Of a stretch of 20,282 nucleotides of DNA, positions 1 through 20,282 are shown one piece after another. The DNA comes from a virus. The notes under the pieces were generated by a model that was not told the DNA's origin, did not search any database, and saw only the letters and a program-made list of their open reading frames with translations. Location: IMG/VR virus record IMGVR_UViG_3300048113_000142, positions 1-20,282 of that record, one strand, 5' to 3'. Numbering within the stretch: the first letter of the stretch is position 1; every line of letters starts with the position of its first letter. The translations under genes and the position numbers were made by a program.

Positions 1-508
1 TGGTTGCGATACGATAAAAAAAAAGCAGACAACCTAGAAAGATGTCAGCAGATAGATCCTGAAAGCCTAAGCCATCATGCACCTCTGGATCATAATTCTC
101 AATGCTATGCCTTCCAAATACCTTCTTGGTAATAGGTCTATACAATACACCTAAAACCTTCTCAGCGTTCTTATATGGCTCTTTTAGATATGTATCTAGA
201 TCAACATACTCCCCCATAGAGATATCTTCTATCTTAGGGTGAAAGCCATACTCCCTCCCCTTGAATTGGAATGTCTTTATCAGGTTAGGCTTCTCAGATA
301 ATACTTCTCCTATTTGATTCCTGATCAGATCCAGATCCTTCTTCTTCATTCCTTCCTGTTGAGCAGGAGTCAATCCACAGAATTGATATAAAGCTATCTC
401 ATCACCATTCTCCTCATTAGCCATAAGTATGAATTTCTTGTATACAGATAACTTCACATCTGATAGATTCTCTGGAATCTCTATGCTAACGGATTGTGTA
501 TCTCCCAT
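1..508 (-). CDS. Conserved phage protein downstream of terminase, 3' end missing
   Basis: An open frame starts at ATG 506-508 (MGDTQSVSIEIPENL) and runs off the left edge after 169 codons with no stop. It overlaps the last 23 bases of the large terminase gene, so it is probably translationally linked to it. The visible part has a GREYGFHP motif near residue 85, an aromatic and acidic stretch, and a hydrophobic segment (FLGCLLFFY) near the truncation. The pattern of GREYGF followed by GEYVDL and a later VLYRPI resembles an uncharacterised structural or tail-assembly-like family I associate with phages of Bacteroidetes, but I cannot name a function. A run of nine T in the coding strand (plus strand A at positions 16-24) stays in frame here. 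I see no clear ribosome binding site. Confidence 0.7.
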   Translation of the reverse strand, partial: MGDTQSVSIEIPENLSDVKLSVYKKFILMANEENGDEIALYQFCGLTPAQQEGMKKKDLDLIRNQIGEVLSEKPNLIKTFQFKGREYGFHPKIEDISMGEYVDLDTYLKEPYKNAEKVLGVLYRPITKKVFGRHSIENYDPEVHDGLGFQDLSADIFLGCLLFFYRIAT

Positions 509-1640
509 AATTAGGTTTGCTTAGTTTATTATATACCCCATATCTCAATGCATCAATGAGGTGATTGTATTTATCCTCTGGCTTATTCAATAGATTTCCG
601 TTCTTATCCTCCATCCATTTATAATTCTCCATCTCCTTCATGAGATTACTTCCTATGATATGGATCTTATATCTCTTTAACATATCAATCCCTGCATTAA
701 CAGAGTCTGCTCCTTTCTGAGTAGGTTTTATATTCCATCCCATTCTATGTAGTTCCTCTATACTCTTAGGCTCTGAGGAATCGCCAAAGATCTCATCATA
801 TCTCCCTATATCCAACTTCTGGAATTCTCTATTCAGATCCTGATTAGTTAGGTTAGTTGAATATAGTAATTCCTGAAAATAAAGATTATCTCCTTCCTGA
901 TAACATCCCACCAATGCAGAAGGATCATTAGTGAATCCAAAGTCAAGACCAAAGGAAAGAAACTTAGCAGTAACAGGAATCTGTTGGATAGTTGTGAATT
1001 GGAACACCTGTGCTCTATTCGTTCCTCTCTCACCTAATCCATAGACTCTCCAATAATGCTCATCTGTTTGCTTTAGTCTCTCTATCTCATCTATGATAGT
1101 CTGATCTAGGAATGGATTATCTAGGTATGTCGTTTGATAGAAGTCAGCATCATCTCTTGGTATTACCCTATCATAAATCCAATGGAATGTATCTGAAGGA
1201 TTGTAATCCAGAATGATCCTGCCGTTGGTACGGAATACAATTTGTTGCCAATCCTCAAAGGTCAATTCATTAGCCTCATTTAAGAAAGCCAGATCTCTCT
1301 TCCTACCTCTGATCTTCTGTGGCTGATCCATAGATATGAACTCTACTAGATTGCCGTTTAGTATATACTCTGAATTGGATTTGTTATGATTCTCCTCTCT
1401 ATATAGATCTGATCCTTTTAGGATATCTAAGAAGTCCCTCATGACTGAGGAGCGAACTGCAGGGAATGTCTTCCTAGCGATTGTAATAGTCTTACCTACA
1501 TTCTCCCCACAATAGTAGAAGATAATCCATAAGAGGATGTTGTATGTCTTTCCAGAGCGAGTACCTCCCTGTTCTACTACTATCTTCTTATCTGATCTCT
1601 TAAGATGTCCGTAGACTTTATTAACTCGGATCTTGCTCAT
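486..1640 (-). CDS. terL: Phage terminase large subunit
   Basis: This is the ATP-driven DNA packaging motor and nuclease that cuts concatemers and pumps DNA into the prohead through the portal. The 384-residue protein has a Walker A motif GGTRSGKT at residues 25-32, a Walker B DLAFLNEA at 116-123 with the acidic pair NE, and a coupling-like segment DYNPS at 145-149. The C-terminal RNase H-fold nuclease domain shows the expected acidic residues: D233 in GLDFGF, D287 in GDSSEP and D363 in HLIDALRYG. This architecture fits the Terminase_3/PBSX-like group. It is slightly shorter than many relatives, but all catalytic motifs are present. The start ATG lies inside the end of the small subunit gene (20-base overlap), the usual terS-terL arrangement. 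Confidence 0.95.
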   Translation of the reverse strand: MSKIRVNKVYGHLKRSDKKIVVEQGGTRSGKTYNILLWIIFYYCGENVGKTITIARKTFPAVRSSVMRDFLDILKGSDLYREENHNKSNSEYILNGNLVEFISMDQPQKIRGRKRDLAFLNEANELTFEDWQQIVFRTNGRIILDYNPSDTFHWIYDRVIPRDDADFYQTTYLDNPFLDQTIIDEIERLKQTDEHYWRVYGLGERGTNRAQVFQFTTIQQIPVTAKFLSFGLDFGFTNDPSALVGCYQEGDNLYFQELLYSTNLTNQDLNREFQKLDIGRYDEIFGDSSEPKSIEELHRMGWNIKPTQKGADSVNAGIDMLKRYKIHIIGSNLMKEMENYKWMEDKNGNLLNKPEDKYNHLIDALRYGVYNKLSKPNYGRYTIR

Positions 1641-5725: not shown

Positions 5726-5738
5726 TGAATTTTAATAA

Positions 5739-8394: not shown

Positions 8395-9304
8395 CTAATT
8401 GTCTTTCTTTAGTTACCAAATTTATTCCATTTATTCTAAACCCACAATTTCCATTTGTAGATTCCATCCTGATCGGTAAATCTAATGGTGTAGGTCTACC
8501 TCCAGATTCTAACTCCTTCACTTTCCTCACATGAATATCGGTAAAGATCCAATCCTGACTATGCTGCGTGTATCTGTGAATCACAAAGAATTCATCAGAG
8601 CGGTTCACGAATTTACCACCGCCTTCAACATCACTCGCCATAGGAGGCATCGTATGATTTACATATTCATGAGATCCTCTATGAACTTGTCTTAGGGCCT
8701 GTGTTGCAGGATGCGTATTCACTATCGTAGTTACACCATATTCCTTACAGAACTTTCTAATATGGCTTGTTACCTCGTAATGATATTCGTGTGTAGTGAT
8801 TCCCTTACCTACATCTTCCTTCTTAATCGTTAGCGAGTTATAAGGATCTATCATCATTCCCTGAAACTCCCAAGCATCATATATCTCTCTAGCAATATCT
8901 AATAACTCAAAAGCATTAACGATCAACTCTGAATCTATGAATGCCCAATGTCCCTCTACAAAAGCATGATGTCTCCAGAATGTCTGTTCATCAATCTGAT
9001 TGATTGGCTTTCCTGCTAGGAATTCAATGATCTTTCTCTGGAGGGATTGAACCTCATTCTCTGAGGAATAGATCAGCCATCTAGTTCCATTCTCTAAGGT
9101 ATGTAGTAATTGCAGGTATGTCATCGTGTGAGTCTTTCCTACATTAGCGTGTCCTGTTACCACTACGAAGTTTCCCTTCTTGAATCTTAAGTGATCATCT
9201 ATCTCTCCTACTCCAAATCTTGATGCCTCTGATATCTTACCCTCTCTCGCTCTCTCTAGATAGCGTAGAGTCTTATTTGATTGTATTATGTGTTTATGTA
9301 TCAT
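8378..9304 (-). CDS. DnaB/RecA-type replicative helicase ATPase
   Basis: The 308-residue protein is a RecA-fold ATPase of the DnaB-like type, moving along single-stranded DNA to open the phage replication fork. It has Walker A GHANVGKT at 51-58, an H1a-like E83 (SSENE), Walker B GMMIDPYNS with D153, a sensor segment IVNTHPA at 194-200, and a C-terminal VRKVKELESGG with a candidate arginine finger at about 259-269. The N-terminal DnaB helical collar and any primase domain are absent, so it is a minimal helicase core. No primase gene is visible nearby. The ATG 9302-9304 follows a GA-rich site (AGAGGG), with a strong terminator upstream. A -7-like AATGTTTG sits between them but lacks a convincing -33. 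Confidence 0.9.
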   Translation of the reverse strand: MIHKHIIQSNKTLRYLERAREGKISEASRFGVGEIDDHLRFKKGNFVVVTGHANVGKTHTMTYLQLLHTLENGTRWLIYSSENEVQSLQRKIIEFLAGKPINQIDEQTFWRHHAFVEGHWAFIDSELIVNAFELLDIAREIYDAWEFQGMMIDPYNSLTIKKEDVGKGITTHEYHYEVTSHIRKFCKEYGVTTIVNTHPATQALRQVHRGSHEYVNHTMPPMASDVEGGGKFVNRSDEFFVIHRYTQHSQDWIFTDIHVRKVKELESGGRPTPLDLPIRMESTNGNCGFRINGINLVTKERQLDGSPF

Positions 9305-9346
9305 CCCTCTAATTTAACAAACATTTTTAATATCTCAGATCCTGAG

Positions 9347-9375
9347 AAAAAAAAAGAGGAGTATTTCTACCCCTC
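9347..9375 (-). terminator. Strong intrinsic terminator after the SSB gene
   Basis: On the minus strand GAGGGGTA (9375-9368), a 4-base loop, and TACTCCTC (9363-9356) pair with one mismatch and are followed by nine T (9355-9347). This is a classic Rho-independent terminator, 22 bases after the SSB stop codon. A second small hairpin CTCAG-GAT-CTGAG (9346-9334) follows directly. Confidence 0.85.
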
Positions 9376-9397
9376 TCTACCTAACACAATCAATCAA

Positions 9398-9913
9398 CTA
9401 GAATGGTAAGTTATCATCTGTTGCTTGTCCGTTTACGATAGCATTTGCTACCTCTATCTTTTCCTCTCTGGAAGAGAAGTGATTATCATATGTAGTCTCC
9501 TTCTTATCATCTTCCATAACCCAACTCACAAATGAGTCTGCTACCTTTAGAACATCTGTGCTCTTAGCACCTTTGTCTTTTAAGAGATCAACTGCTGCTT
9601 TTAAACAGGATTGCTTTACGATCATCTTCTGCTTAGTGTCTCCTCCTGAAGAGTAACTACCTCCAGAATATCCACCACCTGAGAAACCACCTCCCTGATT
9701 GTAAACAGGCTTGATGCGATTACCATATTGAGTAGCATTCAATTCATACTCTGCTTCCATACCAACTACGAACTTAGTCTGATCTGGTTTAACTGAAGAG
9801 TATTCTCCTGAATCTCCATTGTCAAATGTTAGAGCGAACTTATATAAAGTTCTTCCATCCTTTAACTGATAATCTCCCTGCGGATTAACCGCAACTACTT
9901 TTGCTTTCTTCAT
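9398..9913 (-). CDS. ssb: Single-stranded DNA-binding protein
   Basis: The 171-residue protein has an N-terminal OB-like beta region (residues 1-72), a flexible glycine/serine linker (GGGFSGGGYSGGSYSSGG, 74-91), a helical segment (100-132) and the acidic tail DDNLPF. That tail is the hallmark SSB C-terminus that recruits replication and repair proteins. The helical segment between linker and tail is unusual compared with ordinary bacterial SSB, where the linker leads straight to the tail. It coats single-stranded DNA at the phage fork and during recombination. The gene is followed by a strong terminator, so its expression may be set separately from the helicase unit. Confidence 0.8.
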   Translation of the reverse strand: MKKAKVVAVNPQGDYQLKDGRTLYKFALTFDNGDSGEYSSVKPDQTKFVVGMEAEYELNATQYGNRIKPVYNQGGGFSGGGYSGGSYSSGGDTKQKMIVKQSCLKAAVDLLKDKGAKSTDVLKVADSFVSWVMEDDKKETTYDNHFSSREEKIEVANAIVNGQATDDNLPF

Positions 9914-9915
9914 GA

Positions 9916-10044
9916 TTATTTACTTGATTGATTAATAATGTGCACCTCTAGCATTGCTAGTCTTTCCTTCATCCATTCGCTTCCTACTCTCTCTGCGAAT
10001 CCTTCTAGATCATCAATGATCTGATAAATGTTCTCTGTATTCAT
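9916..10044 (-). CDS. Small acidic helical protein, 42 residues
   Basis: The frame from ATG 10042-10044 (MNTENIYQIIDDLEGFAERV) to TAA 9916-9918 ends two bases before the SSB start, and has a purine-rich site (ACAGAGAT) upstream. The product is amphipathic and helical. It lies just after the hairpin terminator of the 125-residue gene and is probably the first gene of the SSB unit. Function unknown. Confidence 0.6.
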   Translation of the reverse strand: MNTENIYQIIDDLEGFAERVGSEWMKERLAMLEVHIINQSSK

Positions 10045-10061
10045 ATCTCTGTTTTTAAATA

Positions 10062-10077
10062 GGAGGGTTTCCCCTCC
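10062..10077 (-). terminator. Hairpin terminator after the 125-residue gene
   Basis: GGAGGG (10062-10067) and CCCTCC (10072-10077) form a 6-bp stem with a 4-base loop, 9 bases after the TAA at 10087. It is followed on the minus strand by TATTTAAAAAC. The stem and the sequence between stem and stop codon nearly repeat the terminator at 5430-5447. Confidence 0.6.
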
Positions 10078-10086
10078 CTTTGATTA

Positions 10087-10464
10087 TTATTCTTCAATAA
10101 AGAATTTTTCGTTCTTCTGGTTAATGATGATCTCTCCTTTGTCTGTATTGATGATGATTCCATTTACTCTATCACTCCACTCTCCATTTGAATAAGCGAA
10201 ACCTTTAACTCCTTGAAACTCTACTAGAAATCCGAATTTTAGTAATGCATCTTTCTTTTTACGGATACTAGTTCCTTGTGTTCTGTTCAACTCTTTTCTT
10301 GTGTAGTATTCTCTAAGAGTTTCGTATGAATCTGAATATCTATCATAAATAGGAGCATCAACATCATCACCTAATGAAATTCTTTCATTCATAGTTGATT
10401 CATATGTCCATACATAGAATTTAGTTCCTTCTGTCATCTCTTTTGTTGTCATCTTAATTTTCAT
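10087..10464 (-). CDS. Protein of unknown function in its own transcription unit, 125 residues
   Basis: The 125-residue protein (MKIKMTTKEMTEGTKFYVWT) has a mixed alpha/beta look with many charged residues and an aromatic YSDSYETLREYY helix. No known motif. It has its own promoter (10487-10517), the ribosome site AAAAGAGAGAGAGAT adjoining ATG 10462-10464, and a hairpin terminator after the stop. These flanks closely resemble those of the 5458-5673 gene although the proteins do not look alike. Confidence 0.65.
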   Translation of the reverse strand: MKIKMTTKEMTEGTKFYVWTYESTMNERISLGDDVDAPIYDRYSDSYETLREYYTRKELNRTQGTSIRKKKDALLKFGFLVEFQGVKGFAYSNGEWSDRVNGIIINTDKGEIIINQKNEKFFIEE

Positions 10465-10486
10465 ATCTCTCTCTCTTTTGATACTT

Positions 10487-10517
10487 CAAAGAAAAGAATA
10501 AAATCTGAGACTACAAA
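10487..10517 (-). promoter_or_regulatory. Bacteroidetes-type promoter
   Basis: On the minus strand TTTG (10517-10514) is followed after 19 bases by TTTCTTTG (10494-10487), which differs from the -7 consensus TAnnTTTG at one base. The spacing and the distance to the ATG (22 bases from the -7 box) equal those of the promoter at 5696-5725. It lies immediately after the RusA gene. Confidence 0.6.
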
Positions 10518-10523
10518 GAATTA

Positions 10524-10892
10524 TTAAAAAAGTTTGTGAATTATTTTTCCCTCTATCTGGATCACTGATGTATCCTTAGGGATGTCAGAAGCAGGTTCTA
10601 TCCTGACTGACTTGATGAATTTCTTATTATCATCTGCTATCATTCCTGCATCTACCAATGCATCCTGAGTGAACTTGATAGCCATTATGCAATTGTCCAG
10701 ATCATATCTGTAATTGACCTTTGCAGTAATTACGCAATACTCAAATTGAAAGTCATAATCTAACTGATCAGTAATGATCTCCTTCCATTTAGTCTTCTCT
10801 CTGGATCTGAATGTCCAATGAGGTGAAGAGTAGAATTTATTAAGGCTAGGTATCTTACCTAATGTTATCTCTATTTTAGTATGATCAGTCAT
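10524..10892 (-). CDS. rusA: RusA-family Holliday junction resolvase
   Basis: The 122-residue protein has RusA hallmarks: the N-terminal strand and loop ITLGKIPSLNK, the active-site motif YRYDLDN (D64, D66) followed by MAIKFTQDAL with K73, and the second acidic site MIADDNKK (D87, D88). RusA dimers cut four-way DNA junctions symmetrically, resolving recombination intermediates and branched DNA before packaging. Length is typical. The ATG overlaps the end of the upstream 57-residue gene by 8 bases. It is the last gene of the 11334-10524 unit. Confidence 0.9.
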   Translation of the reverse strand: MTDHTKIEITLGKIPSLNKFYSSPHWTFRSREKTKWKEIITDQLDYDFQFEYCVITAKVNYRYDLDNCIMAIKFTQDALVDAGMIADDNKKFIKSVRIEPASDIPKDTSVIQIEGKIIHKLF

Positions 10893-11058
10893 ATCCTAAT
10901 CTCTCAGCATACTCTGAATCAATCTCTGCTATTCTACCTAAGTATCTTCTCTCTTCTTCCTTAGCATAGATCCTTTCCTCTGGAGTTGATTCTAGACCTA
11001 AGTTCTGATATAACATAGCCATCTCATGAAGATATCTATCAATGTTAGGATCTCTCAT
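10885..11058 (-). CDS. Small charged helical protein, 57 residues
   Basis: The frame from ATG 11056-11058 (MRDPNIDRYLHEMAMLYQNL) to TGA 10885-10887 overlaps both the preceding 46-residue gene and RusA. The C-terminal two thirds is strongly charged and helical (ERIYAKEEERRYLGRIAEI). No known family. The position suggests an accessory role in the RusA unit. Confidence 0.65.
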   Translation of the reverse strand: MRDPNIDRYLHEMAMLYQNLGLESTPEERIYAKEEERRYLGRIAEIDSEYAERLGYD

Positions 11059-11185
11059 CTGCTTCTTTTATTTCATATACTACTCCATTCATTGTTAGCT
11101 TAACGCTAAACCCCTGAACTGCCCAAGCAGTATATCCCTTATCATTAAGGCTAACTGCTAAAGTCTGTGCTTCTCTCATTGTCAT
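11045..11185 (-). CDS. Small protein of unknown function, 46 residues
   Basis: The frame from ATG 11183-11185 (MTMREAQTLAVSLNDKGYTA) to TAA 11045-11047 starts at an ATGA overlap with the preceding gene. A second ATG two codons later is an alternative start. The WAVQGFSVKLTMNGVVYEIKE part looks like a small beta hairpin after an N-terminal helix. Function unknown. Confidence 0.65.
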   Translation of the reverse strand: MTMREAQTLAVSLNDKGYTAWAVQGFSVKLTMNGVVYEIKEADERS

Positions 11186-11334
11186 ACGCTCTGCTCTGTT
11201 TGATAATACTTCCAGAAATTAGAATGATCAGATCTCTGTTCATCATGAAATCCAAAATGAGATAAGAAGTGATTATTGTAATCATCCTCTAACTTATCCA
11301 TCTCTATAGCTATACTCTTCTGTCTTCTAGTCAT
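11182..11334 (-). CDS. Small protein of unknown function, 50 residues
   Basis: The frame from ATG 11332-11334 (MTRRQKSIAIEMDKLEDDYN) to TGA 11182-11184 is the first gene after the AT-rich repeat region. A purine-rich AGAGAGAAA precedes the ATG, and its stop overlaps the next start (ATGA). The product is polar with several histidines and aromatics (HFLSHFGFHDEQ). No motif recognised. Confidence 0.6.
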   Translation of the reverse strand: MTRRQKSIAIEMDKLEDDYNNHFLSHFGFHDEQRSDHSNFWKYYQTEQSV

Positions 11335-11344
11335 AGTTTCTCTC

Positions 11345-11441
11345 TGTAAGAGAGTAATATATAGTATAATAGTATTATAGTTAGTTACTCTTTCAGAGTA
11401 ATATAGTATAATATATATAATATAATATATATATAGTATAA
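11345..11441. repeat. AT-rich repeat region with hairpins
   Basis: This non-coding stretch is almost pure A/T. The core AGTATAAT occurs three times, within AGAGTAATATATAGTATAAT (11351-11370), AGAGTAATATAGTATAAT (11395-11412) and TATATAGTATAATTA near 11430-11444. Two inverted repeats lie among them: CTCTCTGTAAGAGAG (about 11340-11354) and TTACTCTTTCAGAGTAA (about 11385-11401). It separates the lysis cassette from the RusA unit. Easily melted DNA with repeated sites fits a replication origin, a promoter region for the RusA unit, or both. No exact TAnnTTTG element is present. Confidence 0.6.
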
Positions 11442-11849
11442 TTACTTAAGTAACTTAATAAGACCGAAGGTATAAAGGATTATTGAGATAATCAAGATAT
11501 ATAGATATTTCCTATCAAAGTTCTTTTTCTGATAGACAAGTTGAGGTACTTTGATCTCCTTCTGGATCCTGATAGTATCACTAGGACATTCAACATCTAC
11601 CTCTATAGTGTCATATACCCTTCTCAGATCAATTCTAATGCCGTTTCTCTCTAAAGTGATAGTATCTATCTTCTCAAGAATTAAAGTGTCTCTAACCTCT
11701 TCTTTTTGAGTTATGATTAGAGTATCCACTTTCAGGGCAACTGAATCTAGGATCTGAGGATCTTTTGCAATTGCACGATTTAGGTGATACTTCGCACCAC
11801 AAGACCAAAAAAGCAGCCCTATTAGAACTGCTCTTATTACGATCCACAT
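11442..11849 (-). CDS. Putative unimolecular spanin (lipoprotein with C-terminal membrane anchor)
   Basis: From ATG 11847-11849 (MWIVIRAVLIGLLFWSCGAK) the 135-residue protein starts with a lipoprotein-type signal ending at a candidate lipobox LFWS-C17. It continues with a long periplasmic part of repeated DT-rich beta or coiled segments (SVALKVDTLIIT, VRDTLILEKIDTITLE), and ends with a transmembrane helix (YLYILIISIILYTFGL) near the C-terminus. A lipid anchor in the outer membrane plus an inner-membrane helix in one chain is the u-spanin layout, which fuses the two membranes in the last step of lysis. Position after the endolysin and holin candidates supports this. The lipobox is not canonical (W at -2). 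A TTG three codons upstream is an alternative start. Confidence 0.65.
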   Translation of the reverse strand: MWIVIRAVLIGLLFWSCGAKYHLNRAIAKDPQILDSVALKVDTLIITQKEEVRDTLILEKIDTITLERNGIRIDLRRVYDTIEVDVECPSDTIRIQKEIKVPQLVYQKKNFDRKYLYILIISIILYTFGLIKLLK

Positions 11850-11947
11850 GCTTCGCAATCTTCAGGGTTATCAATGTTGCAACTAGGTTGCTCCATATTC
11901 TCTAACTCATCTACAAAATCCGCAAAGCTATCTCCAAAATCATCCAT
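11837..11947 (-). CDS. Small acidic Cys-containing protein, 36 residues
   Basis: The frame from ATG 11945-11947 (MDDFGDSFADFVDELENMEQ) to TAA 11837-11839 lies between the holin candidate and the spanin-like gene, overlapping the former by 8 bases and the latter by 13. It is very acidic with a C-terminal cluster CNIDNPEDCEAC (three cysteines). This could bind a metal or be a regulatory peptide. Function unknown. Confidence 0.5.
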   Translation of the reverse strand: MDDFGDSFADFVDELENMEQPSCNIDNPEDCEACGS

Positions 11948-12107
11948 TCATTTTGTCTTTAGAAAAGAATAATACAAACGCTACACCAAAGAAAGTTCCT
12001 GCCTCTGTGAGACTCGCTTTCTCCATAGCCACTAATGTAATACCTGCTGCGAATAATACTGCTCCTACTGCCGTAGTTTTCCAATTCTTTGTAACTCTAT
12101 CTATCAT
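11940..12107 (-). CDS. Small two-span membrane protein, candidate holin
   Basis: The frame from ATG 12105-12107 (MIDRVTKNWKTTAVGAVLFA) to TGA 11940-11942 encodes 55 residues with two hydrophobic helices (about 12-27 and 37-49) separated by a short charged turn. The C-terminus is KDKMNG. Two helices, short length and position between the endolysin and the spanin-like gene fit a class II holin, which would open the inner membrane at lysis time. The start overlaps the preceding stop (ATGA). Two other membrane proteins upstream are competing candidates. Confidence 0.5.
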   Translation of the reverse strand: MIDRVTKNWKTTAVGAVLFAAGITLVAMEKASLTEAGTFFGVAFVLFFSKDKMNG

Positions 12108-12385
12108 CCTCTTAGTCTATCATTTTCTTTTTTTAAAAAACCTACCTCTGTTCTCAGCGCATGAACCTCAGCAGTAAGTTCTAATACCTTAGTATTACTC
12201 TCCTCTAATAACTGCTCCAATCTAGCAACTCTATTCTTTAGATCATCACGATATTGAACACCATCACTATTCTGCACAGATTCCTTTTTATAGTCCGTTT
12301 TGAGTTTCAATCTAAATTCTAAAAACTTCCAGATACCTGCAGATGCAAGTATTGTGCCTATCGTGATTATTACCTGACTATCCAT
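12104..12385 (-). CDS. N-anchored coiled-coil membrane protein, lysis cassette
   Basis: The 93-residue protein has one N-terminal membrane helix (VIITIGTILASAGIWKFLEF, about residues 5-24), then a basic stretch and a long coiled coil (about 48-92, RVARLEQLLEESNTKVLELT and following leucine heptads). This single anchor plus coiled coil resembles an inner-membrane i-spanin (Rz type) or a holin-associated protein. Because a u-spanin candidate is also present, an Rz role would be redundant. The start overlaps the membrane-protein gene upstream by 8 bases. Confidence 0.55.
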   Translation of the reverse strand: MDSQVIITIGTILASAGIWKFLEFRLKLKTDYKKESVQNSDGVQYRDDLKNRVARLEQLLEESNTKVLELTAEVHALRTEVGFLKKENDRLRG

Positions 12386-12749
12386 TTCTTGCTGCTCTTT
12401 CTTTTTCTACTCTGATCACATTCCAACAAGCAAAGGCGAATATAATGATCCATCCTGTTCTACTCCCTTCCATCAATCCTACCATTGATAGGTTAATTAT
12501 CGTAGCCAATGCAATTATAGAAGCCAATTTCACCGCTCTTAGTCTATTTCTAAGAGATCCATCATACAGAACTGCCCACAATTGAAACCCTCCTGCAAAT
12601 AATGCTCCTAGAATCAGCCAATAGTTCGGATCCTGATACTCAGCACATATGCTCAATGGTAAGCAGATTAAATGACATAAAGAGATCAGGATCTCATTAG
12701 GCTCAGAATCTGAATATAAAAATATGCTCTTAGCTTTCTTTAATCCCAT
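12378..12749 (-). CDS. Multi-span membrane protein, candidate holin
   Basis: The 123-residue protein shows hydrophobic segments at about 19-37 (EILISLCHLICLPLSI), 43-62 (YWLILGALFAGGFQLWAVLY), 72-92 (AVKLASIIALATIINLSMVG) and 98-112 (GWIIIFAFACWNV), with a basic C-terminus (RVEKERAARNG). This is compatible with a class I-like holin or a small channel protein. It lies directly after the endolysin gene (10-base overlap). I cannot tell which of the three small membrane proteins is the holin. Confidence 0.55.
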   Translation of the reverse strand: MGLKKAKSIFLYSDSEPNEILISLCHLICLPLSICAEYQDPNYWLILGALFAGGFQLWAVLYDGSLRNRLRAVKLASIIALATIINLSMVGLMEGSRTGWIIIFAFACWNVIRVEKERAARNG

Positions 12750-13225
12750 CTCTTATATATTACCCTTCCAGATTGGCGAACGGCTCTTAGAACCTCTCCT
12801 CTGTTGTTTTCTGACTTATAAGATACATGAACCCAATCAGGGTTCTCATCATCTCCAAACTCCCAGATAAGTTGATCAAACTCTAGGTTGTTCTTAATGA
12901 ACTCAAAGATATAAGCATTCTCTACTGATCCATCTAAATCTAAAGCCTCACCTTTTGAGTGCTGAGATCCTGAAGCACCACCGATCAGATCATTCAATGC
13001 CTTTGATCTATATCCTGAACTCACTATGATAGGCTCATTAAAATGATCTCTTATAGGTTGGAAGATCTTGTTAGCTATCTGGATTAGGTTAGATAAATGA
13101 TCACCACTAGGCTTATTGCTTATCCCATACTTAATAGCAGTATGCGATTTTGTAGCCTCTGATAATGTTAGATTCTTACTTAGCTTCATAGTATCATATT
13201 GAAATAAGGCTTTCAGCCATCTCAT
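12740..13225 (-). CDS. Endolysin, M15-family peptidase
   Basis: The protein matches the peptidase M15_3 family, zinc enzymes that cut peptide bonds in peptidoglycan. Counting from ATG 13223-13225, it has SSGYRS at 69-74, the zinc-site segment SQHSKGEALDLD with H89 and D96, a catalytic acid E122 in LIWEFG, and the final zinc ligand H133 in WVHVSY. The length, 161 residues, is normal for a single-domain phage endolysin without a cell-wall-binding domain. The chosen start overlaps the stop of the tail-protein gene (ATGA). A second plausible start is MKLSKNL 12 codons later. No signal peptide is visible, so it would depend on a holin for release. Confidence 0.85.
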   Translation of the reverse strand: MRWLKALFQYDTMKLSKNLTLSEATKSHTAIKYGISNKPSGDHLSNLIQIANKIFQPIRDHFNEPIIVSSGYRSKALNDLIGGASGSQHSKGEALDLDGSVENAYIFEFIKNNLEFDQLIWEFGDDENPDWVHVSYKSENNRGEVLRAVRQSGRVIYKRWD

Positions 13226-14949
13226 ATCGTTGTTAGTTCTATACACTCACTATCAGTTAGGGCAGTTGGGAAGATTGTGAATTGGTTTGTTACATTTCTT
13301 GATAGTCCATTGTAATTTAACATTTCTAAACCTTCAGGAACTTCAGTAATATATGTATGTACAAGAGACCCATTAACAAATAATTTAGAATTTAACCCAT
13401 TTAAAACAAATGCTACTTTGTCTCTTGTTGTACAGGTGTAGTCTACGGAGGTAGTGCTTGTATTTGAATATACTTGATATCTTAACCTACCATCTGTCAA
13501 AGAAACTATTCTAAATGATTGTAAAAAATTATCATTAACATATCCCCTAACAATGTCTCTATTAAATGTTGATTTTCCTTCCATATCACCCCAATCAAAG
13601 AACAATGTATTGTAGGCAGATGTAAAAGAAGAAATGTCAAGTAAATTTGCTAATGTATCCCCTAACCTCGTTTGACTTACACCATATGTAGGTATATACG
13701 ATGTTGGGTAGGTCGCATCTTGCTCCGCTTGGAAGCCATATATATATAATCCATCGCTTCCGTTTCCTGTGGCACTTAAAGTGTAAGCAGGTGAATCAGT
13801 TGAATCTCCTATTGATAAGTGTGCATATCTATTTGTTGAGTTGGCTACATATACCCATACTCTATACCAACCATTTCCCATATCTTCAATACCTGTATCA
13901 TCAGCAATAGAGTTGATTAGCGTTCCATTGGTCAAATTGTACATTGCATAGAGATATCCAGTTCCTGTATATGAAGAAACTGATATGGCGTTTTTTTCTC
14001 CTGCTTTAGCAAATACTGAAACTACTTGGCTTCCAGAACCACTTGTTTGCTTAAATAATCGTGTGTTACCTCCTCCAGATGTTACAATTAATTTAGTAGC
14101 ATTTGTTTTGCCTTCAGGAGATGATGCAGAGTTATAATCAAATGAAATATTACTAAAACTAAATGTAGCAGAAGATATGTACTCACTATGCTCTAAAACA
14201 TTAGTCCGACTCGGCTCTAACAACAAAGCAGGACACGAACCATTAGAATAGTCAAGGCGAGGCATATCCTCCAAGATACCACCTGCTACAGGAGCAGTAG
14301 TAGTCTCTTTATATGGGTAGGCTACAAGACCTTGATTGAGCATTGCATCTTGGATGTAGATAGTTCCTGCGGCATCTTGATTAGATGCGTTTTGTGGTTT
14401 TAATAGCAGGTTATTAGTTTCGTTCTTGTTGATGGTTATAGAACATCTATACCAATCCGTAGTACCTGATACCAACTCAATTGTTTGGGCAATTGGTGTG
14501 CCTCCTGCTCTAGTAGCGGTAACATTCTCTAAATCAAATCGTGCAGCATCTCCCGCAGTAAATAGAAATATCCTATCTAATGTACCTGCTTTGGCATAAA
14601 AACTAATGGTCACTACACCTGTATACACTAAACTATTTTTGCCGAAATATGCGTTCCCTGTGGCTAATTTATTTACAAGCCAAGCATCATTTGTTCCATC
14701 ATATCCTGCTTCACCATTTGTTATAAGGTAAGACGAGTCATCTCTTGCGAAATCATTAGAACCAATAATAGTATTCTCATACCCCTTCTCTATATAGCCA
14801 TCCGCATTAACACGAGTAGCACTTGTATTGCTACCTCTACTGAAGGTAAAGTCTCCTGTGCCATCCGTAGGCTTCAAACTCCCTAATGTACCATCCTCGT
14901 AGCCACTCGGTATCATTACCAAACTCGCTGACTCTAATGCATTCGCCAT
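13222..14949 (-). CDS. Large tail/adhesion protein, paralogue A
   Basis: The 575-residue protein is rich in Ser, Thr, Asn and Gly, with the beta-rich look of phage receptor-binding or tail proteins. The N-terminal block LKPTDGTGDFTFSRGS (about 25-40), ATRVNADGYIEKG and the mid-protein LLLEPSRTN recur in the 15836-17530 protein, so the two are paralogues. Repeated patterns (DWYRCSI, then GNGWYRVWVY, and sugar-binding-like SFYAKAG and SVFAKAG segments) suggest two or more carbohydrate-binding jelly-roll modules. The C-terminal part (VAFVLNGLNSKLFVNGSLVH) resembles a concanavalin/LamG-like fold. It probably binds host surface glycans. There is no GATC site in the gene, unlike most of the window. 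Confidence 0.75.
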   Translation of the reverse strand: MANALESASLVMIPSGYEDGTLGSLKPTDGTGDFTFSRGSNTSATRVNADGYIEKGYENTIIGSNDFARDDSSYLITNGEAGYDGTNDAWLVNKLATGNAYFGKNSLVYTGVVTISFYAKAGTLDRIFLFTAGDAARFDLENVTATRAGGTPIAQTIELVSGTTDWYRCSITINKNETNNLLLKPQNASNQDAAGTIYIQDAMLNQGLVAYPYKETTTAPVAGGILEDMPRLDYSNGSCPALLLEPSRTNVLEHSEYISSATFSFSNISFDYNSASSPEGKTNATKLIVTSGGGNTRLFKQTSGSGSQVVSVFAKAGEKNAISVSSYTGTGYLYAMYNLTNGTLINSIADDTGIEDMGNGWYRVWVYVANSTNRYAHLSIGDSTDSPAYTLSATGNGSDGLYIYGFQAEQDATYPTSYIPTYGVSQTRLGDTLANLLDISSFTSAYNTLFFDWGDMEGKSTFNRDIVRGYVNDNFLQSFRIVSLTDGRLRYQVYSNTSTTSVDYTCTTRDKVAFVLNGLNSKLFVNGSLVHTYITEVPEGLEMLNYNGLSRNVTNQFTIFPTALTDSECIELTTI

Positions 14950-14951
14950 AT

Positions 14952-15482
14952 CTAACTAATTTCTATCGCTACCAATTCATTCAACGCTGCGTAAGTACAA
15001 GCCTCCGCCTCAAACACATCCATCCTGCCCTGTAAAGTATATACATACTCACTTGTCTCTACTATCTTCTCAATAGTTCTGGTAATAGTCTCACCTTGAT
15101 TCGGATCTGCTAGATAAGCAGCTAGTGTTAATGTTCCATCAGCAAGTGCTGATATATCAACAGGGACATCCAACTCTGTATTACCTCCCATATTCACTGA
15201 TCCTATCAGGATCTGATCATCAACATCTGTAATAGTATAATAGACATAAGCCTGAGCCTGTCCATTACCTACATGAAAGGAAGCACTCTGATAATTCTGG
15301 AAGTCTAAAACACTTTGATTCCATTCAATAGTATATCCAGAAGGCGGTTCAGTATCTACACTAATACCTATCCCCTGTGCCCATAGAGAGCCATCACAAC
15401 ACTCTATTGAGTATGTGTTTCTTCCTCTACATAAACAGGCTCTCTTTCCTCCCTTTGGAGATGTTCTACTCGGTATCTTCAT
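14952..15482 (-). CDS. Structural protein with Cys-rich N-terminal motif
   Basis: The 176-residue protein begins with a basic stretch and the motif CLCRGRNTYSIECCDGSLWA (C17, C19, C28, C29), then QGIG. I associate this motif with phage structural proteins in Bacteroidetes. The rest is beta-rich and acidic (DTEPPSGYTIEWNQSVLDF, VPVDISALADGTLTLAAY), as in an Ig-like or baseplate domain. Four cysteines could hold a metal or form disulfides after assembly. Unlike its neighbours it contains four GATC sites, so it has the composition of the core genome. It lies two bases before paralogue A. Confidence 0.6.
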   Translation of the reverse strand: MKIPSRTSPKGGKRACLCRGRNTYSIECCDGSLWAQGIGISVDTEPPSGYTIEWNQSVLDFQNYQSASFHVGNGQAQAYVYYTITDVDDQILIGSVNMGGNTELDVPVDISALADGTLTLAAYLADPNQGETITRTIEKIVETSEYVYTLQGRMDVFEAEACTYAALNELVAIEIS

Positions 15483-15834
15483 CTATTGGTGGGTTACAAT
15501 ATGTTGAGTTAGGGTATAGGATGCAGTAAGCCGTTGCGTACTCATCTCTTGAACTTGAACTACCAAAGCTATGTATTCCCATAGGTGTAGGCCATACAAG
15601 GTACTGCTGCCACTCTTGATTAGGCACATCTTTCCAATGTACATCTACTGCATAGACCTCACTTACGATAGCAGGTGTTAGTTCATTTCCTTCCTCATCA
15701 TATGTAGCAGGAGTTGTAACGAGGTAGCCTAACTTGACTACTGCTTCTGTTAGGTTTCCTTCTTCATCTCGTAGAATGTCTATTGCAACATCTGCTGCTG
15801 CCTCATCTACAAACTCGTATTTTCTTGTAATCAT
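15466..15834 (-). CDS. Tail-associated protein of unknown function, 122 residues
   Basis: The protein (MITRKYEFVDEAAADVAIDI) is acidic with an EEGNLTEAVV segment, a VDVHWKDVPNQEWQQYLVWP core and a tail rich in small residues and cysteines (AYCILYPNSTYCNPP). Similar small proteins next to tail genes can be assembly factors or minor structural parts. The N-terminal half has the pattern of a small helix-sheet domain. It overlaps the Cys-rich protein gene by 17 bases. No family recognised. It contains no GATC. Confidence 0.6.
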   Translation of the reverse strand: MITRKYEFVDEAAADVAIDILRDEEGNLTEAVVKLGYLVTTPATYDEEGNELTPAIVSEVYAVDVHWKDVPNQEWQQYLVWPTPMGIHSFGSSSSRDEYATAYCILYPNSTYCNPPIDEDTE

Positions 15835-15835
15835 T

Positions 15836-17530
15836 TTATATCGTTGTAAGGGTTGCTAAATCTGCGTTTGATAGTCGTGTCTTAAATACAAGGGCTTGAG
15901 ATACAACACCGCTCATATTTGCAGTATTTGCGCTATAACCACCTACCCTTAAATCATCATATGTAACCGCAGGAGTATAAGTTACTGAAGATGTATCTAT
16001 CTGCTCACCATTAACATACAATACACTATTCCCACTTTCAAATGCAAATGCTGCTTTGAGTGTATCAGCAACATTGTTTTTTTGGAAACTGAATATAGTG
16101 CTATTATTATTTCGGTAAGACACAAATAAATTACCTGCCACACTTCTTGCAATAAATATAGTGTTTGCAAAAGAGGCTTGTTCTATTCTCATCAAGTAGC
16201 CTTCAGTATTTACTGCATCTTCAATAGTTGCCTCTACATACATCGTTCCTGTACCTTGAGGAAGTAAATCACTAATCCCACTTGCAATTTGCATAGCATC
16301 CGCCCCCCTCGTAATCGTGCCGCCCGAATGATTCGGAATGTAGGAAGTTGGGTAGGAGCCCGCTTCTTGCATTATTCCGTAAACAAAAATTGTTTGTGCT
16401 GGATTCGTGATTCCATAATCACCTAAAAGAATTAAAAAATCTTTATCTGAATTATCAGCCGTGAATGTAATGTCAAATCGCTTCCATTCAGTAGTCAATT
16501 CAGCGATTATCTGCTCGGTAGTTCCTCTTGTGAAAGAACATTTAACATTTACATTTGACGCATCGCTCTTTAGATAAAAAGAAAAAGAATATGTAGTTCC
16601 AATTGTTGTGTTAAATCTACCTAAATCAACAAATGCATTTGAATTTGGGTTTGTTGTAGTCCATTTGTATGCATTGCTTAAACCTTCTGGTGATTCATAA
16701 AAACCACTTTCCAAAGTAACATTGATTGATGAAAAACTATTATTATTTGTCAAGTATTCACTATAAGGAATCAAGTTAGTCCTACTCGGTTCCAATAAAA
16801 GAGACGGGCAATCACCCGAATAATCAAAACGGGGTTCGTCCTCTAATAATCCCGCCTTTCCCGTTGTTGCACCCGTTGAAATTACTTCAGTTGCTGCGAG
16901 GCCGATTTCCAATTGTGAGTCTTGGATGTAGATGCTTCCGCTTGTGCCGCTTTCATCATTATTTCCATCCGATGGGTATAGTCTTATTGAACTTAATGAT
17001 GAATTAAATGTAACGCTACAACGATACCATCCATTTCCAACATCTTCAATTTCTCGTTCAATGGCATTAAAAACATAACCCCCTAAAACACCATTTTCTA
17101 AATCATAGTATGCCCTAACATTTGGACTACCCACTGCATATATTTGAAGCCAACTATTTGTATTTTTTTTAGCATATACCGAAATAGTTTGAACTCCGCT
17201 TGATGATTTGTTTTGATATATAGTTCCGTTTGCTCCACTTTTAGTCAATAACCACGCATCCGAACTACCATCATATCCACTTTGTCCGCTTGTTTCCGTA
17301 GTCAAGTAATTGACCCAAGTCGTATCAAACTGGTTGCTCTGCAAAAAAAGATTCTCCCGCCCTTTCTCAATCAATCCATCAGCACCCACACGAGTAGCTG
17401 ATAGGTTTGAACCTCTTGAAAAGGTGAAGTCGCCATCACCATTAGTAGGCTTTATGCTATACGCTTTTCCATCTTTACCTGCTGCTCCGCTTGGTAGGAA
17501 TGCTAAACTTGCATCGTCAAAAAAACTCAT
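15836..17530 (-). CDS. Large tail/adhesion protein, paralogue B
   Basis: The 564-residue protein parallels paralogue A: IKPTNGDGDFTFSRGS near residue 25, ATRVGADGLIEKG, a carbohydrate-binding-like module (TISVYAKKNTNSW, then GNGWYRCSVTF), LLLEPSRTN in the middle, a second module (SFYLKSD, then EWKRFDITF), and a C-terminal concanavalin/LamG-like domain (AAFAFESGNSVLYVNGEQID). It likely recognises a host surface polysaccharide together with, or instead of, paralogue A. The ATG overlaps the stop of the 72-residue gene by one base (TAATG). There is no GATC site in the gene. Confidence 0.75.
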   Translation of the reverse strand: MSFFDDASLAFLPSGAAGKDGKAYSIKPTNGDGDFTFSRGSNLSATRVGADGLIEKGRENLFLQSNQFDTTWVNYLTTETSGQSGYDGSSDAWLLTKSGANGTIYQNKSSSGVQTISVYAKKNTNSWLQIYAVGSPNVRAYYDLENGVLGGYVFNAIEREIEDVGNGWYRCSVTFNSSLSSIRLYPSDGNNDESGTSGSIYIQDSQLEIGLAATEVISTGATTGKAGLLEDEPRFDYSGDCPSLLLEPSRTNLIPYSEYLTNNNSFSSINVTLESGFYESPEGLSNAYKWTTTNPNSNAFVDLGRFNTTIGTTYSFSFYLKSDASNVNVKCSFTRGTTEQIIAELTTEWKRFDITFTADNSDKDFLILLGDYGITNPAQTIFVYGIMQEAGSYPTSYIPNHSGGTITRGADAMQIASGISDLLPQGTGTMYVEATIEDAVNTEGYLMRIEQASFANTIFIARSVAGNLFVSYRNNNSTIFSFQKNNVADTLKAAFAFESGNSVLYVNGEQIDTSSVTYTPAVTYDDLRVGGYSANTANMSGVVSQALVFKTRLSNADLATLTTI

Positions 17531-17748
17531 TAGCTTATTTCGTTTTGTGGTTCGGGAACGGGTACATATTCAATGCGTTCCAATTCATTTAAGTCATCGT
17601 GTATTGCTGCAAAGGCAGAATCATCTAATACCGCAGTTCCTACAATCCAATTGTCGTTGCCATCTTTAGCGAACTTCAAAAGGTTGTCTCCGTTTCTATA
17701 TCCATCCAACGCATCATACTGCGCTTGTGTTGCTTTTAATACTATCAT
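17530..17748 (-). CDS. Small tail-associated protein, 72 residues
   Basis: The protein (MIVLKATQAQYDALDGYRNG) is acidic and combines a helix-turn start with DNWIVGTAVLDDSAFAAIHD, and ends VPVPEPQNEIS. Such short proteins often sit beside fibre or adhesin genes in marine phages and may act as assembly helpers. That is inference from position. It is coupled at both ends: ATGA with the WGK-repeat gene and TAATG with paralogue B. Confidence 0.6.
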   Translation of the reverse strand: MIVLKATQAQYDALDGYRNGDNLLKFAKDGNDNWIVGTAVLDDSAFAAIHDDLNELERIEYVPVPEPQNEIS

Positions 17749-18755
17749 AGTGATGTGAAATAGTTAGTGTACCACGCTTCTTCTACATCTTGCATCTCTG
17801 CCGTTGTGAGCGATGAGCCTAAAGCGAAGATTCCCATTTTTGCCGTTTGCTCAAACAAACCAGTAAAGAATCTCAAAAGTATAAGTTCATTGCCTATGAG
17901 TGGTTCGCTTGGTACATTTCCAGAAAGAGTGCTTGTATTTTCGCCAACTAAATCCGTGTTTCGTTGATTCACACTAGTGCTTGATGTTCTGTTGTAAAAA
18001 TGAATAGTATCATCTTGTTTGTAGATAAGGTAATTAGCAAGTCGTTGAGATGTGCTATTTAACCATATTCTGTTGATATTGTTCACCCCATCTATATCAA
18101 TTCTTGAACTTAAATAGTTATTTTCTACATCCGTACCAAATGGTCGGTTATTGACTAAAGATGTTGAACTTAAAGTTGGGAACGCTACAAACACCCCCGC
18201 ATTATTTTGCGTATAGTTTGTGCCGTGAGTATCTAATACAAAGCCAGTATCAAGAGATGCCGTACCACTTTGAGCAAAACCTTCATTTGCCGTAAATGTC
18301 GGGCTATTGGTTTTAGTCGCTTGGAAACTGCTCGGTGCTTTCCAATTCAATGTCGCAAAGTCACTATCGCCATCCGTAGCGAAACAATAGAACACATCTA
18401 ATTTATCCCAAACACCCGCAGTTTTCAAATCCTCTACAAGTGTATTCTGCAAGGTTTGTTGTGTTGCACTTGGTGCGGTGTAGCCTAAAGTAGTTGACCT
18501 GTCTAATATCGCTTGATAGTCAGCATCAAATGCAGAAGGCTCTGGGTTATTTACAAGGAAAGTTAAATCAGTAGACATACATTCAGTAGACTCAACACTA
18601 CCTCCATCTGCCTCTACCCTTGATACAAACTCACTTACTAATGCAGGAACAACTCCTGCTAAATCAGCATATGCCTTACCCCAACTTATATTATTGTCAG
18701 TATTCCCCCAATAGGTAGACTCATATATCTTTCCCCAATTTATAGTATTAGCCAT
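17745..18755 (-). CDS. Tail protein with WGK repeats and lectin-like C-terminus
   Basis: The 336-residue protein starts with an imperfect repeat, INWGKIYESTYWG and ISWGKAYADLAG, a short aromatic motif seen in phage virion proteins. Residues 35-110 are helical. The C-terminal part from about 120 has a beta-sandwich look (FATLNWKAPSSFQAT; SFQATKTNSPTFTANEGF; VFVAFPTLSSTS) of the kind used for receptor or glycan binding, ending with EMQDVEEAWYTNY, a helix typical of the end of concanavalin-like phage proteins. There is no GATC site. Proposed role: tail or head decoration and host attachment. Confidence 0.65.
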   Translation of the reverse strand: MANTINWGKIYESTYWGNTDNNISWGKAYADLAGVVPALVSEFVSRVEADGGSVESTECMSTDLTFLVNNPEPSAFDADYQAILDRSTTLGYTAPSATQQTLQNTLVEDLKTAGVWDKLDVFYCFATDGDSDFATLNWKAPSSFQATKTNSPTFTANEGFAQSGTASLDTGFVLDTHGTNYTQNNAGVFVAFPTLSSTSLVNNRPFGTDVENNYLSSRIDIDGVNNINRIWLNSTSQRLANYLIYKQDDTIHFYNRTSSTSVNQRNTDLVGENTSTLSGNVPSEPLIGNELILLRFFTGLFEQTAKMGIFALGSSLTTAEMQDVEEAWYTNYFTSL

Positions 18756-18840
18756 TCTTCTTATTCTTTTTCATGAGGTACTTCTTCAACTTCTGTATGT
18801 TAGCCTTCTTAGGCTTATAGGTATTCTTTACAGAACCCAT
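18748..18840 (-). CDS. Lysine-rich 30-residue peptide
   Basis: A frame from ATG 18838-18840 (MGSVKNTYKPKKANIQKLKK) to TAA 18748-18750 fills the gap between the connector-like gene and the WGK-repeat gene, overlapping each (13 and 8 bases). About 40 percent of residues are lysine and there are no acidic residues. It could bind DNA or the capsid interior. Very short, so caution is needed, but the double overlap favours a real gene. Confidence 0.5.
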   Translation of the reverse strand: MGSVKNTYKPKKANIQKLKKYLMKKNKKNG

Positions 18841-19328
18841 CCTGCAAAATTCTGATTCTTGCTAGGGTACATATCATCATTGTTATTCTGATTGTACTCT
18901 GGATATGTAGCATTATTGAAACTCATATGATCTACAAATCTCCTAGCATAATGCTCTGCTATATCTCGCTCCTTCTGTACTAAATAATCTAAATCTTCCT
19001 TAGTAACACTCGTTCCATTCTCTGATCCTTTAGTATAGATGCCTCCATTTGCTACTTTAAAGTGGATATAAGGCAATATCTCTATCGCTGCATAGTGGAT
19101 TACCATATCCTGAATGTAATCATCTAAGAGAGTCTGGTAGTTAGTAGGTATATTTCCTGCTTCAATATCAGTTTTGAACTTCTCAAATAATCTAGTTCCC
19201 ATGATACCCTGTACATGAATATCCTGAGCGATCTTAATGAATTGAATCATCTGATCACGATCAACATTCCCATTGATACCTGTTCTCTTTATAACATCAG
19301 CAGGGCTGACAAATAGTACCTGTGCCAT
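18828..19328 (-). CDS. Head-tail connector-like protein (DUF6712-like)
   Basis: The 166-residue protein begins with MAQVLFVSPADVIKRTGING and contains NVDRDQMIQFIKIAQDIHVQ followed by GIMGTRL, then a helical core (LLDDYIQDMVIHYAAIEILP) and SVTKEDLDYLVQKERDIAEHYA, ending in an Asn-rich tail. This helical-bundle pattern matches the family I know as DUF6712 in Bacteroidetes phages, located right after the portal gene like the gp6/gp15-type head-tail adaptors. It would form a ring under the portal to join head and tail. The gene starts one base after the portal stop region. Confidence 0.7.
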   Translation of the reverse strand: MAQVLFVSPADVIKRTGINGNVDRDQMIQFIKIAQDIHVQGIMGTRLFEKFKTDIEAGNIPTNYQTLLDDYIQDMVIHYAAIEILPYIHFKVANGGIYTKGSENGTSVTKEDLDYLVQKERDIAEHYARRFVDHMSFNNATYPEYNQNNNDDMYPSKNQNFAGWVL

Positions 19329-19329
19329 A

Positions 19330-20282
19330 TTAGTTTAATTTTCCTCTGTTCGGCATATCTATAGGGCGAGTATTTGCAGTATCATAATCCTTAGGATTAA
19401 TCTTACTCTGTGGTACACCTGCTGCTGCCGCCTGTGAAGGTGCTACTCTCTTATCATTCTCTAATGCCTCTGTCTGGCTCTTTGGTAAGAACTTACCTCC
19501 TGATCTCTTTCTAGTATAGATCAATCGCTGCCATTTGTGATGACAATATGCTCCTCCCTTATACTTGAAGATAGAATATGTGCTTCTGCCCTTAGGCGAG
19601 AATTGACCATTAACTCCAGAGAAACTCATTTGATTGATATCCTCTTTTCTATAGACCTTACCTGAATCAGATAATCCAACCATCTCAACACAGAATGTTC
19701 TGCTATTAGCACTCAATGATCCTGAATATCTATAGCGAATCTTAAACATACCTGCATCTCCTGAAGATCTCTCCTCAGCATCACCATATGAAGAAACTGC
19801 TGCCATATTCACAGAAGTGATAGCCTCTACGATCTGATCCTCATTATCTGGATCTAAGACATCCTGCACCGCAGTTAATTCCCATTCCTCTTCATTGATA
19901 TCTTCTCCCTTATCAGCTAGGTGTTCTAACCATTCCTTTTCATCATCTTTAGTGAATTCAGGATCTGCTGCTAGTTTGATTCCTGTTTCTTCCTCTATTA
20001 CTTCCTCATCATTAATATCTTCAATCTCAGTAAACTCTAAAGGAGTTAATGTTTTGAAGTATAGACTCAATGAGACATTATTAAAGGCTAGGATCTGATC
20101 TAAGGCATCTATCACCTGATTCTGCTTAGGTCTGATCACACTATTATCAAACAAGGTGAATGCAGTCTTAATCTCATCAGCATTATTACCTAATCCTGTC
20201 TGATCCTTAACACCAAATAACATAGGGCTAGTGATTCTATGACCTACCAATACCTTCTGTTGTGATTCCTTAGATAAGAACT
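19330..20282 (-). CDS. Portal protein, 5' part missing
   Basis: The frame is open to the right edge of the window. The in-frame TTG at 20250 is not needed as a start, because codons continue upstream (FLSKESQQKVLVGHRIT). The segment GHRITSPMLFGVKDQTGLGN followed by NADEIKTAF matches the C-terminal region of phage portal proteins, in which this HRxTSPxLxG motif precedes the crown helices. The portal is the dodecameric ring at the head vertex through which DNA enters and leaves. The distal part holds an acidic region (INEEEWELTAVQD) and a basic, proline-containing C-terminal tail (PSQAAAAGVPQSKINPKDYD). The connector-like gene follows directly. About 317 codons are visible. Confidence 0.8.
   Translation of the reverse strand, partial: FLSKESQQKVLVGHRITSPMLFGVKDQTGLGNNADEIKTAFTLFDNSVIRPKQNQVIDALDQILAFNNVSLSLYFKTLTPLEFTEIEDINDEEVIEEETGIKLAADPEFTKDDEKEWLEHLADKGEDINEEEWELTAVQDVLDPDNEDQIVEAITSVNMAAVSSYGDAEERSSGDAGMFKIRYRYSGSLSANSRTFCVEMVGLSDSGKVYRKEDINQMSFSGVNGQFSPKGRSTYSIFKYKGGAYCHHKWQRLIYTRKRSGGKFLPKSQTEALENDKRVAPSQAAAAGVPQSKINPKDYDTANTRPIDMPNRGKLN

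Follow-up and report, generated by a model that had tools for sequence, protein, structure and literature searches.

Adhesin genes of a marine phage family lack the short palindromes avoided across the backbones that carry them, consistent with circulating receptor-binding modules

Why should a phage whose DNA is dense in GATC lack this site entirely in the blocks that hold its adhesin genes? The question is raised by IMG/VR virus record IMGVR_UViG_3300048113_000142, the whole of which (20,282 bp, probably a genome fragment; hereafter the window) was analysed here. A first-pass annotation, made from the letters alone, had counted GATC by hand and described two empty blocks, occupied by two paralogous adhesins and a WGK-repeat protein, with a Cys-rich gene of core-like GATC content between them. 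Exact counts reproduce this picture: 120 GATC in 1-13102, none in 13103-15103, four in 15104-15219 (at 15104, 15199, 15210 and 15215), none in 15220-18900 and 17 in 18900-20282, the four between the blocks lying in the Cys-rich gene. We found that the adhesins lack the combined set of restriction-type sites avoided by the backbones that carry them, and we think it likely that they belong to circulating receptor-binding modules that bear the union of the restriction-avoidance signatures they have met.

At the core rate, about 54 GATC would be expected in the empty blocks, in line with the 50 or so first proposed, but this figure overstates the anomaly because the blocks are poorer in GAT and ATC. 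A second-order Markov model of the blocks predicts 19.7 sites, and shuffling of synonymous codons within genes predicts about 10 for the GATC-free genes; none is seen in either case. Most of the raw deficit is thus due to protein and codon composition. The residual deficit after this control is real, the probability of a zero count by chance in the window alone being roughly exp(-10) to exp(-20). The annotation had also proposed that the core is enriched in GATC through selection or mutation bias linked to methylation, which our data do not support. The second-order Markov model predicts 125.6 GATC where 137 are observed and, in the family cores, GATC exceeds synonymous shuffles 1.22-fold, as do AGAT (1.24-fold) and ATCA (1.23-fold). 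Since these two words are equally high and the Markov prediction is near the observed count, there is no sign of methylation or of selection on GATC; the GATC-rich core is a sequence-context effect, and a GATC-methylation or mutation-bias account of it is ruled out. Two features had been overlooked: compared with the core, the GATC-free blocks are depleted of CTAG and CATG too, and the window as a whole contains no ACGT, CCGG, CGCG or TCGA. Because these palindromes are classic Type II restriction sequences, the finding was reconsidered as avoidance of restriction sites, for which relatives served as a test.

The terminase large subunit (TerL) of the window served as the query that defined its phage family, which is marine. 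The search returned 80 IMG/VR contigs at 85-99% identity; contigs of 14-31 kb were taken for 16 relatives, giving 17 genomes with the window. All relatives that cover the locus, which is flanked by the DUF6712 and peptidase M15 endolysin genes, have no GATC or almost none within it; outside it, most of them are GATC-dense. The borders are sharp, with GATC, CTAG and CATG resuming in or beside the two flanking genes. Pooled over 12 family genes, the adhesins contain no GATC (37.5 expected), four CTAG (62.8) and no CATG (22.2), and TCGA, ACGT and CCGG are likewise missing (37, 51 and 21 expected). With four GATC, CTAG and CATG sites together against 122.5 expected (z = -14), the adhesins are the only strongly depleted gene family in the 17 genomes. 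Next in rank come their cassette neighbours and the non-homologous occupants of the locus in two relatives, and nearly all remaining gene families have observed/expected ratios near 1.

Among the 136 tetranucleotides, the eight lowest at the locus are all palindromes (chance 5e-9). The depletion is specific to palindromes of restriction type, with TGCA, TTAA and GCGC spared, and in the family adhesins palindromes are strongly under-represented relative to composition, as is characteristic of Type II avoidance. In the two relatives just mentioned, G005 (L171) and G013 (L181), genes unrelated to the adhesins fill the adhesin locus, and these are likewise site-free.

The cores, for their part, avoid different sets of sites in different lineages. 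All 17 lack ACGT (0 versus 647 expected) and CCGG (0 versus 165), and TCGA, CGCG, GGCC and AGCT are strongly depleted in them. The cores of G004 (L168-L169) and G012 (L187) additionally lack CTAG and AGCT, and that of G015 (L184) has lost GATC and kept GGCC. Three cores (G007, G008 and G014) retain TCGA, at 147 versus 308 expected; the blocks of these same genomes hold none where 17.5 are expected, despite their TCGA-keeping cores. The adhesin locus thus lacks a superset of the sites avoided by the cores. Such lineage-specific sets are as expected if the cores track the enzymes of their own hosts, and the differences between close relatives may form a fast-changing record of host enzymes. The non-palindromic pair GACG/CGTC is also strongly depleted in the family cores (122 versus 940 expected).

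A search with adhesin 1 of the window retrieved 80 further contigs, many of which share only the adhesin gene with the window family. Two classes were distinguished, 46 contigs with purged adhesins (class A) and 15 others (class B). Class A adhesins contain 14 GATC where 195 are expected, and the purging is independent of the backbone. On the 16 contigs whose backbone keeps CATG, the adhesins hold 0 of 39 expected sites; the corresponding values are 11 of 88 for GATC (24 contigs) and 25 of 157 for CTNAG (35 contigs). When only backbone-kept sites are counted, the adhesin ranks first among the genes for depletion in 32 of 37 contigs, compared with 2.6 expected. What the adhesins lack is predicted by the share of backbones avoiding each motif, with a Spearman correlation of -0.79 over 32 motifs and -0.86 over the 16 four-base palindromes; motifs avoided by almost no backbone (TTAA, TGCA, GCGC, GANTC and GCNGC) occur at normal levels in the adhesins. 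The key result of the analysis is therefore that the adhesin pool carries the union of the sites avoided by its carriers.

Class B adhesins belong to the same protein family and have near-normal counts, except for CCGG, which all 14 testable class B backbones avoid. They are not purged beyond their own backbone, and since they remain unpurged, protein function does not demand purging; a protein-level constraint was ruled out as its cause on these grounds. One class B subclade is nested among the purged adhesins and shows intermediate counts (0.27-0.7), which fit purged genes that are settling and slowly regaining sites, perhaps a clock of settling. The second adhesins of L029, L032, L036, L038 and L043 are of this nested kind.

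The proposal that receptor-binding genes are exchanged as modules is supported by the contrast in identity, by discordant histories and by shared nucleotide patches. In close relatives the flanks of the locus are 80-96% identical and the adhesins 33-45%. The window and G001 share 99% identity in TerL and 94% in the portal protein, but only about 42% in the adhesin; for G006 the values are 87-92% in the flanks and 45% in the adhesin. Across the family relatives TerL identity is 88-99%, and the adhesins thus diverge far more than the genes beside them, the behaviour expected of an exchangeable module. On the adhesin tree, family and unrelated adhesins interleave (7 changes), and adhesin and backbone histories disagree. 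Contigs of 6 of the 10 long relatives end within the adhesin locus, which fits strain-level variation there. A one-off acquisition from a GATC-avoiding donor does not account for the block, given that all locus-covering relatives share the GATC-free block with different adhesins inside it. The purged set is, moreover, a union of many restriction motifs, not GATC alone. In the GATC-rich clade, 0.54-0.84 of TerL codons are identical given the same amino acid, and 7-13 TerL GATC sites are shared with the window; GATC is absent from every family adhesin, although the synonymous codons of TerL have diverged.

Recombination between backbones is recorded in patches of 85-98% nucleotide identity shared by adhesins whose phages have backbones that are unrelated, or barely related, to each other. 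Among contigs without a backbone gene in common, 24 such patches were found at thresholds of 85% identity and 120 bp (range 85-94%, 122-416 bp). The longest joins the LamG region of the window's adhesin 1 to L001, a short contig with only three other genes, over 416 bp at 89.9%. The patches frequently fall at codons ~1-65 or ~195-255, which correspond to the N-terminal anchor and to the linker that joins the first two predicted domains. Over all pairs, the anchors have no higher codon identity than other parts (0.37-0.56 everywhere), and fixed, nucleotide-conserved anchors were consequently ruled out as recombination sites.

Under the explanation that we favour, the GATC-free blocks would be circulating receptor-binding cassettes, made up of the 336-aa, 72-aa, adhesin and 122-aa genes, that sit between the resident DUF6712 and M15 endolysin genes and often recombine between backbones, in part where anchor or linker stretches are conserved. 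A given backbone would lose only the sites that its own hosts cut. A moving cassette, exposed on each backbone to the same pressure as that backbone, would be selected against every site cut by the host of any carrier, and would depart from a permissive backbone before the sites grow back. The end state would be a cassette devoid of the union of sites (GATC, CATG, CTAG, TCGA, ACGT, CCGG and others), and the GATC-dense core would mean that GATC is not cut across the present range of hosts. The depletion, its confinement to this locus, its independence of the backbone, its agreement with the union of sites that backbones avoid and the recombination between backbones are demonstrated by the data; we infer that the selection is exerted by restriction enzymes, and that the cassettes gathered the union by circulating between hosts.

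Several observations weigh against this explanation. Neither a host nor a host-encoded restriction enzyme of matching specificity was identified. Non-palindromic words are depleted too, namely GACG and words containing CAG, which are possibly sites of other restriction types. In the family adhesins the CAG-containing words concerned are ACAG, CCAG and CAGA. GTAC is mildly depleted in the adhesins (0.64), yet no backbone strongly avoids it. The site counts were already visible when classes A and B were separated on the tree. The contigs are metagenomic and mostly incomplete, and relatives do not count as independent samples. The z-scores grow with gene length, although class B adhesins, which are of similar length and serve as a control, rank first in only 2 of 15 contigs. 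Finally, the high-identity patches are specific to particular pairs of adhesins, and overall the anchors show no conservation of codons.

Could composition suffice? Adhesins rich in Ser, Thr, Asn and Gly and with few GAT or ATC codons would be expected to hold no GATC, and the core would be rich in it for a like reason. This holds for most of the raw deficit, which shrinks from 54 to 20 to 10 under the Markov model and synonymous shuffling, and for the core excess; as a full explanation it is refuted by the within-gene shuffles. The shortfalls in the family adhesins (0 versus 37.5) and in the 46 contigs (14 of 195) persist after protein and codon control, the depletion is specific to palindromes that some phages avoid, and class B adhesins are normal. 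We regard this account as very unlikely. Even less credible is a single ancestral import, by which one fully site-avoiding donor phage would have given the family its locus long ago, the rest being inheritance. The block does lie in the same place, between the same flanks, in every locus-covering relative; the annotation had named such a shared pattern as grounds for rejecting its reading, and its presence excludes only a recent single exchange. The import would leave the low adhesin identity (against that of TerL) and the interleaved tree to be accounted for, together with the non-homologous but equally purged genes at the locus in some relatives and the persistence of GATC-free adhesins while TerL codons diverged.

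A local functional constraint, whereby the mere presence of palindromes in adhesin genes is harmful and no history of exchange is needed, is to our mind the least plausible reading. It could act through expression, packaging, the end at which DNA enters or avoidance of a methylation-dependent process. That the depletion is limited to one locus agrees with it, and the several contig ends there could hint at a genome end. These ends are nevertheless scattered within the locus and five relatives (G005, G006, G008, G013 and G014) read through it, by which a genome-end or entry-order account was rejected; the genes at the locus are late structural ones, as opposed to an early anti-restriction gene. 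Of the sites in question, class B adhesins lack only CCGG, and the purged motifs are restriction motifs that other backbones avoid, TGCA, TTAA and GCGC being spared. There is, on the other hand, some chance, albeit a low one, that restriction acts more directly, and that a site-free cassette survives it as an intact fragment and is selected as a unit of transfer. The site-dense core would be cut at the cassette borders and the fragment rescued into a co-infecting phage by recombination through core-homologous flanks, with the consequence that only site-free cassettes spread. Classical phage genetics has established that markers can be rescued from phage DNA that has been restricted. The sharp borders, the homology of the core flanks across relatives and a purged set wider than that of any one backbone are all in keeping with this idea; fragment rescue lacks direct evidence, and passive travel on avoiding backbones explains the correlation with backbone avoidance equally well. 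If it were true, bacterial restriction would itself drive the exchange of receptor-binding genes and keep the cassettes site-free.

Site avoidance and the shuffling of tail proteins are both already known. Rusinov et al. 2018 (PMC6286503) described phage genomes from which short palindromic Type II sites have almost vanished, eliminated sites having observed/expected ratios below 0.1. The loss reported here resembles theirs in dsDNA phage DNA; that study treats the whole genome as one unit matched to host enzymes and does not mention mosaicism, recombination or horizontal transfer, whereas here avoidance differs sharply within one genome and one part bears a union of signatures. Plasmids of broad host range show more avoidance of restriction-modification targets (Shaw, Rocha, MacLean 2023; PMC10359461), a similar case of more hosts met and stronger avoidance. 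Their result concerns whole plasmids and 6-bp palindromes, 4-bp palindromes being uncorrelated with host range, in contrast to the single gene cassettes in phage genomes and the 4-bp and 4+N palindromes seen here. Domains of receptor-binding proteins have recently been exchanged across unrelated phages (Smug et al. 2023; PMC10684548), as in our data; that work does not mention restriction, whereas the exchanged DNA described here bears a signature of restriction history.

This signature could be an independent marker of mobility. Unusual oligonucleotide content is known to mark imported DNA and is used for compositional detection of horizontal transfer; what we describe differs in that specific palindromes are wholly absent across diverse, unrelated cassettes, as opposed to a donor-like composition. 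In a literature search that covered few subscription journals, we found no account of modules within a single phage genome that differ in avoidance, nor of exchanged modules with a union signature, which is weak evidence of novelty. If our reading is true, parts of one genome have different restriction histories, and the sites missing from a receptor-binding gene list the restriction barriers which that gene has crossed. Truly mobile phage modules could then be detected from sequence only, the circulating adhesin pool (class A) could be separated from the settled one (class B), and the host communities that exchange tail genes could be inquired into. The long-standing question of whether restriction impedes or favours the passage of genes from phage to phage would also become open to test.

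As regards the adhesins themselves, adhesin 1 matches Laminin_G_3 in Pfam at 28.2 bits (cut-off 27.6) and CBM_4_9 at 23.4 bits, below the cut-off of 25.9; adhesin 2 has no Pfam match. An AlphaFold2 model of adhesin 1 (mean predicted local distance difference test score, pLDDT, 73; predicted template modelling score, pTM, 0.40) consists of an N-terminal anchor and three predicted beta-sandwich domains, the last LamG-like. Foldseek matched this model to phage tail fibres (8env/9b45) and to CBM and LamG folds; its top matches include Cry and laminin chains at high root-mean-square deviation, which we read only as shared beta-sandwich folds. Similarity to PHROG 5939 and to tail-fibre folds suggests that adhesin 1 is a virion tail protein, and receptor binding would be its putative role.

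Comparison with named phages gave, by blastn, only a 156-bp stretch in Flavobacterium elemo phages (72%) and, by tblastn, only 25-34% matches in Nonlabens, Synechococcus, Rhodobacter and other phages; for TerL the best among the matches listed were 34-37% identical. No cultured representative with a known host was found among named phages by blastn, tblastn or TerL relatives. A scan of bacterial genomes found no relative of the adhesins, and a TerL scan of such genomes gave a single match, at 50% identity, in a Bacteroidetes metagenome-assembled genome. Together with the blastn and tblastn matches in named phages, this points weakly to Bacteroidota as the likely host group.

All main genes of the window lie on the minus strand, as do all those given below. 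The resident flank at one side of the locus consists of the C-terminal part of the portal protein (19330..20280; PHROG 33693 portal, 8.6e-41), 88-94% identical in close relatives, and the DUF6712 gene (18828..19328; PF20459, 1.2e-19), the last core gene before the exchanged locus, in which GATC occurs five times (3.9 expected) and reaches as far as 18929. The WGK-repeat protein of 336 aa (17745..18755; PHROG 26223, 5e-12, unknown function) has retained its N-terminal module and exchanged the remainder; its gene holds 0 GATC, 1 CTAG, 0 CATG and 0 TCGA (2.5, 3.3, 1.2 and 3.8 expected). It is followed by a 72-aa cassette gene (17530..17748), site-free in the window and in relatives; genes of about 72 aa adjoin adhesins in unrelated phages as well. 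Adhesin 1 (564 aa, 15836..17530; PF13385, 2.5e-06; PHROG 5939 tail protein, 3.5e-46) contains no GATC, CTAG, CATG, TCGA, ACGT or CCGG, and the adjacent accessory cassette gene of 122 aa (15466..15834) belongs to a family with 3 sites observed against 25.3 expected when pooled. The Cys-rich gene of 176 aa (14952..15482) has normal site content (4 GATC, 2 CTAG, 1 CATG), and because an orthologue in G006 (83% identity, 5 GATC) shows the same pattern, it looks resident rather than exchanged. Adhesin 2 (575 aa, 13222..14949; PHROG 34853, 2e-34), the paralogue of adhesin 1, has 0 GATC, 1 CTAG, 0 CATG and 0 TCGA (3.2, 7, 2.2 and 4 expected). The first core gene after the locus encodes the peptidase M15 endolysin (12740..13246; PF08291, 1e-19; PHROG 894 endolysin, 9.9e-35) and has nine GATC, the closest to the locus at 13099.

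Elsewhere in the window, the TerL gene (486..1640; PF04466, 8e-23) contains 13 GATC. A Mom-family DNA modification gene (PF25680, 7e-32) adjoins a ParB_N-domain gene, the two occupying 2066-2653 and 2650-3183. A homologue of the former is present in few of the relatives examined, and Mom-type modification could give extra protection against restriction. Beside the replication genes, a small protein with a DnaA C-terminal DNA-binding domain (PF08299, 3.2e-08) is encoded at 7423-7872.

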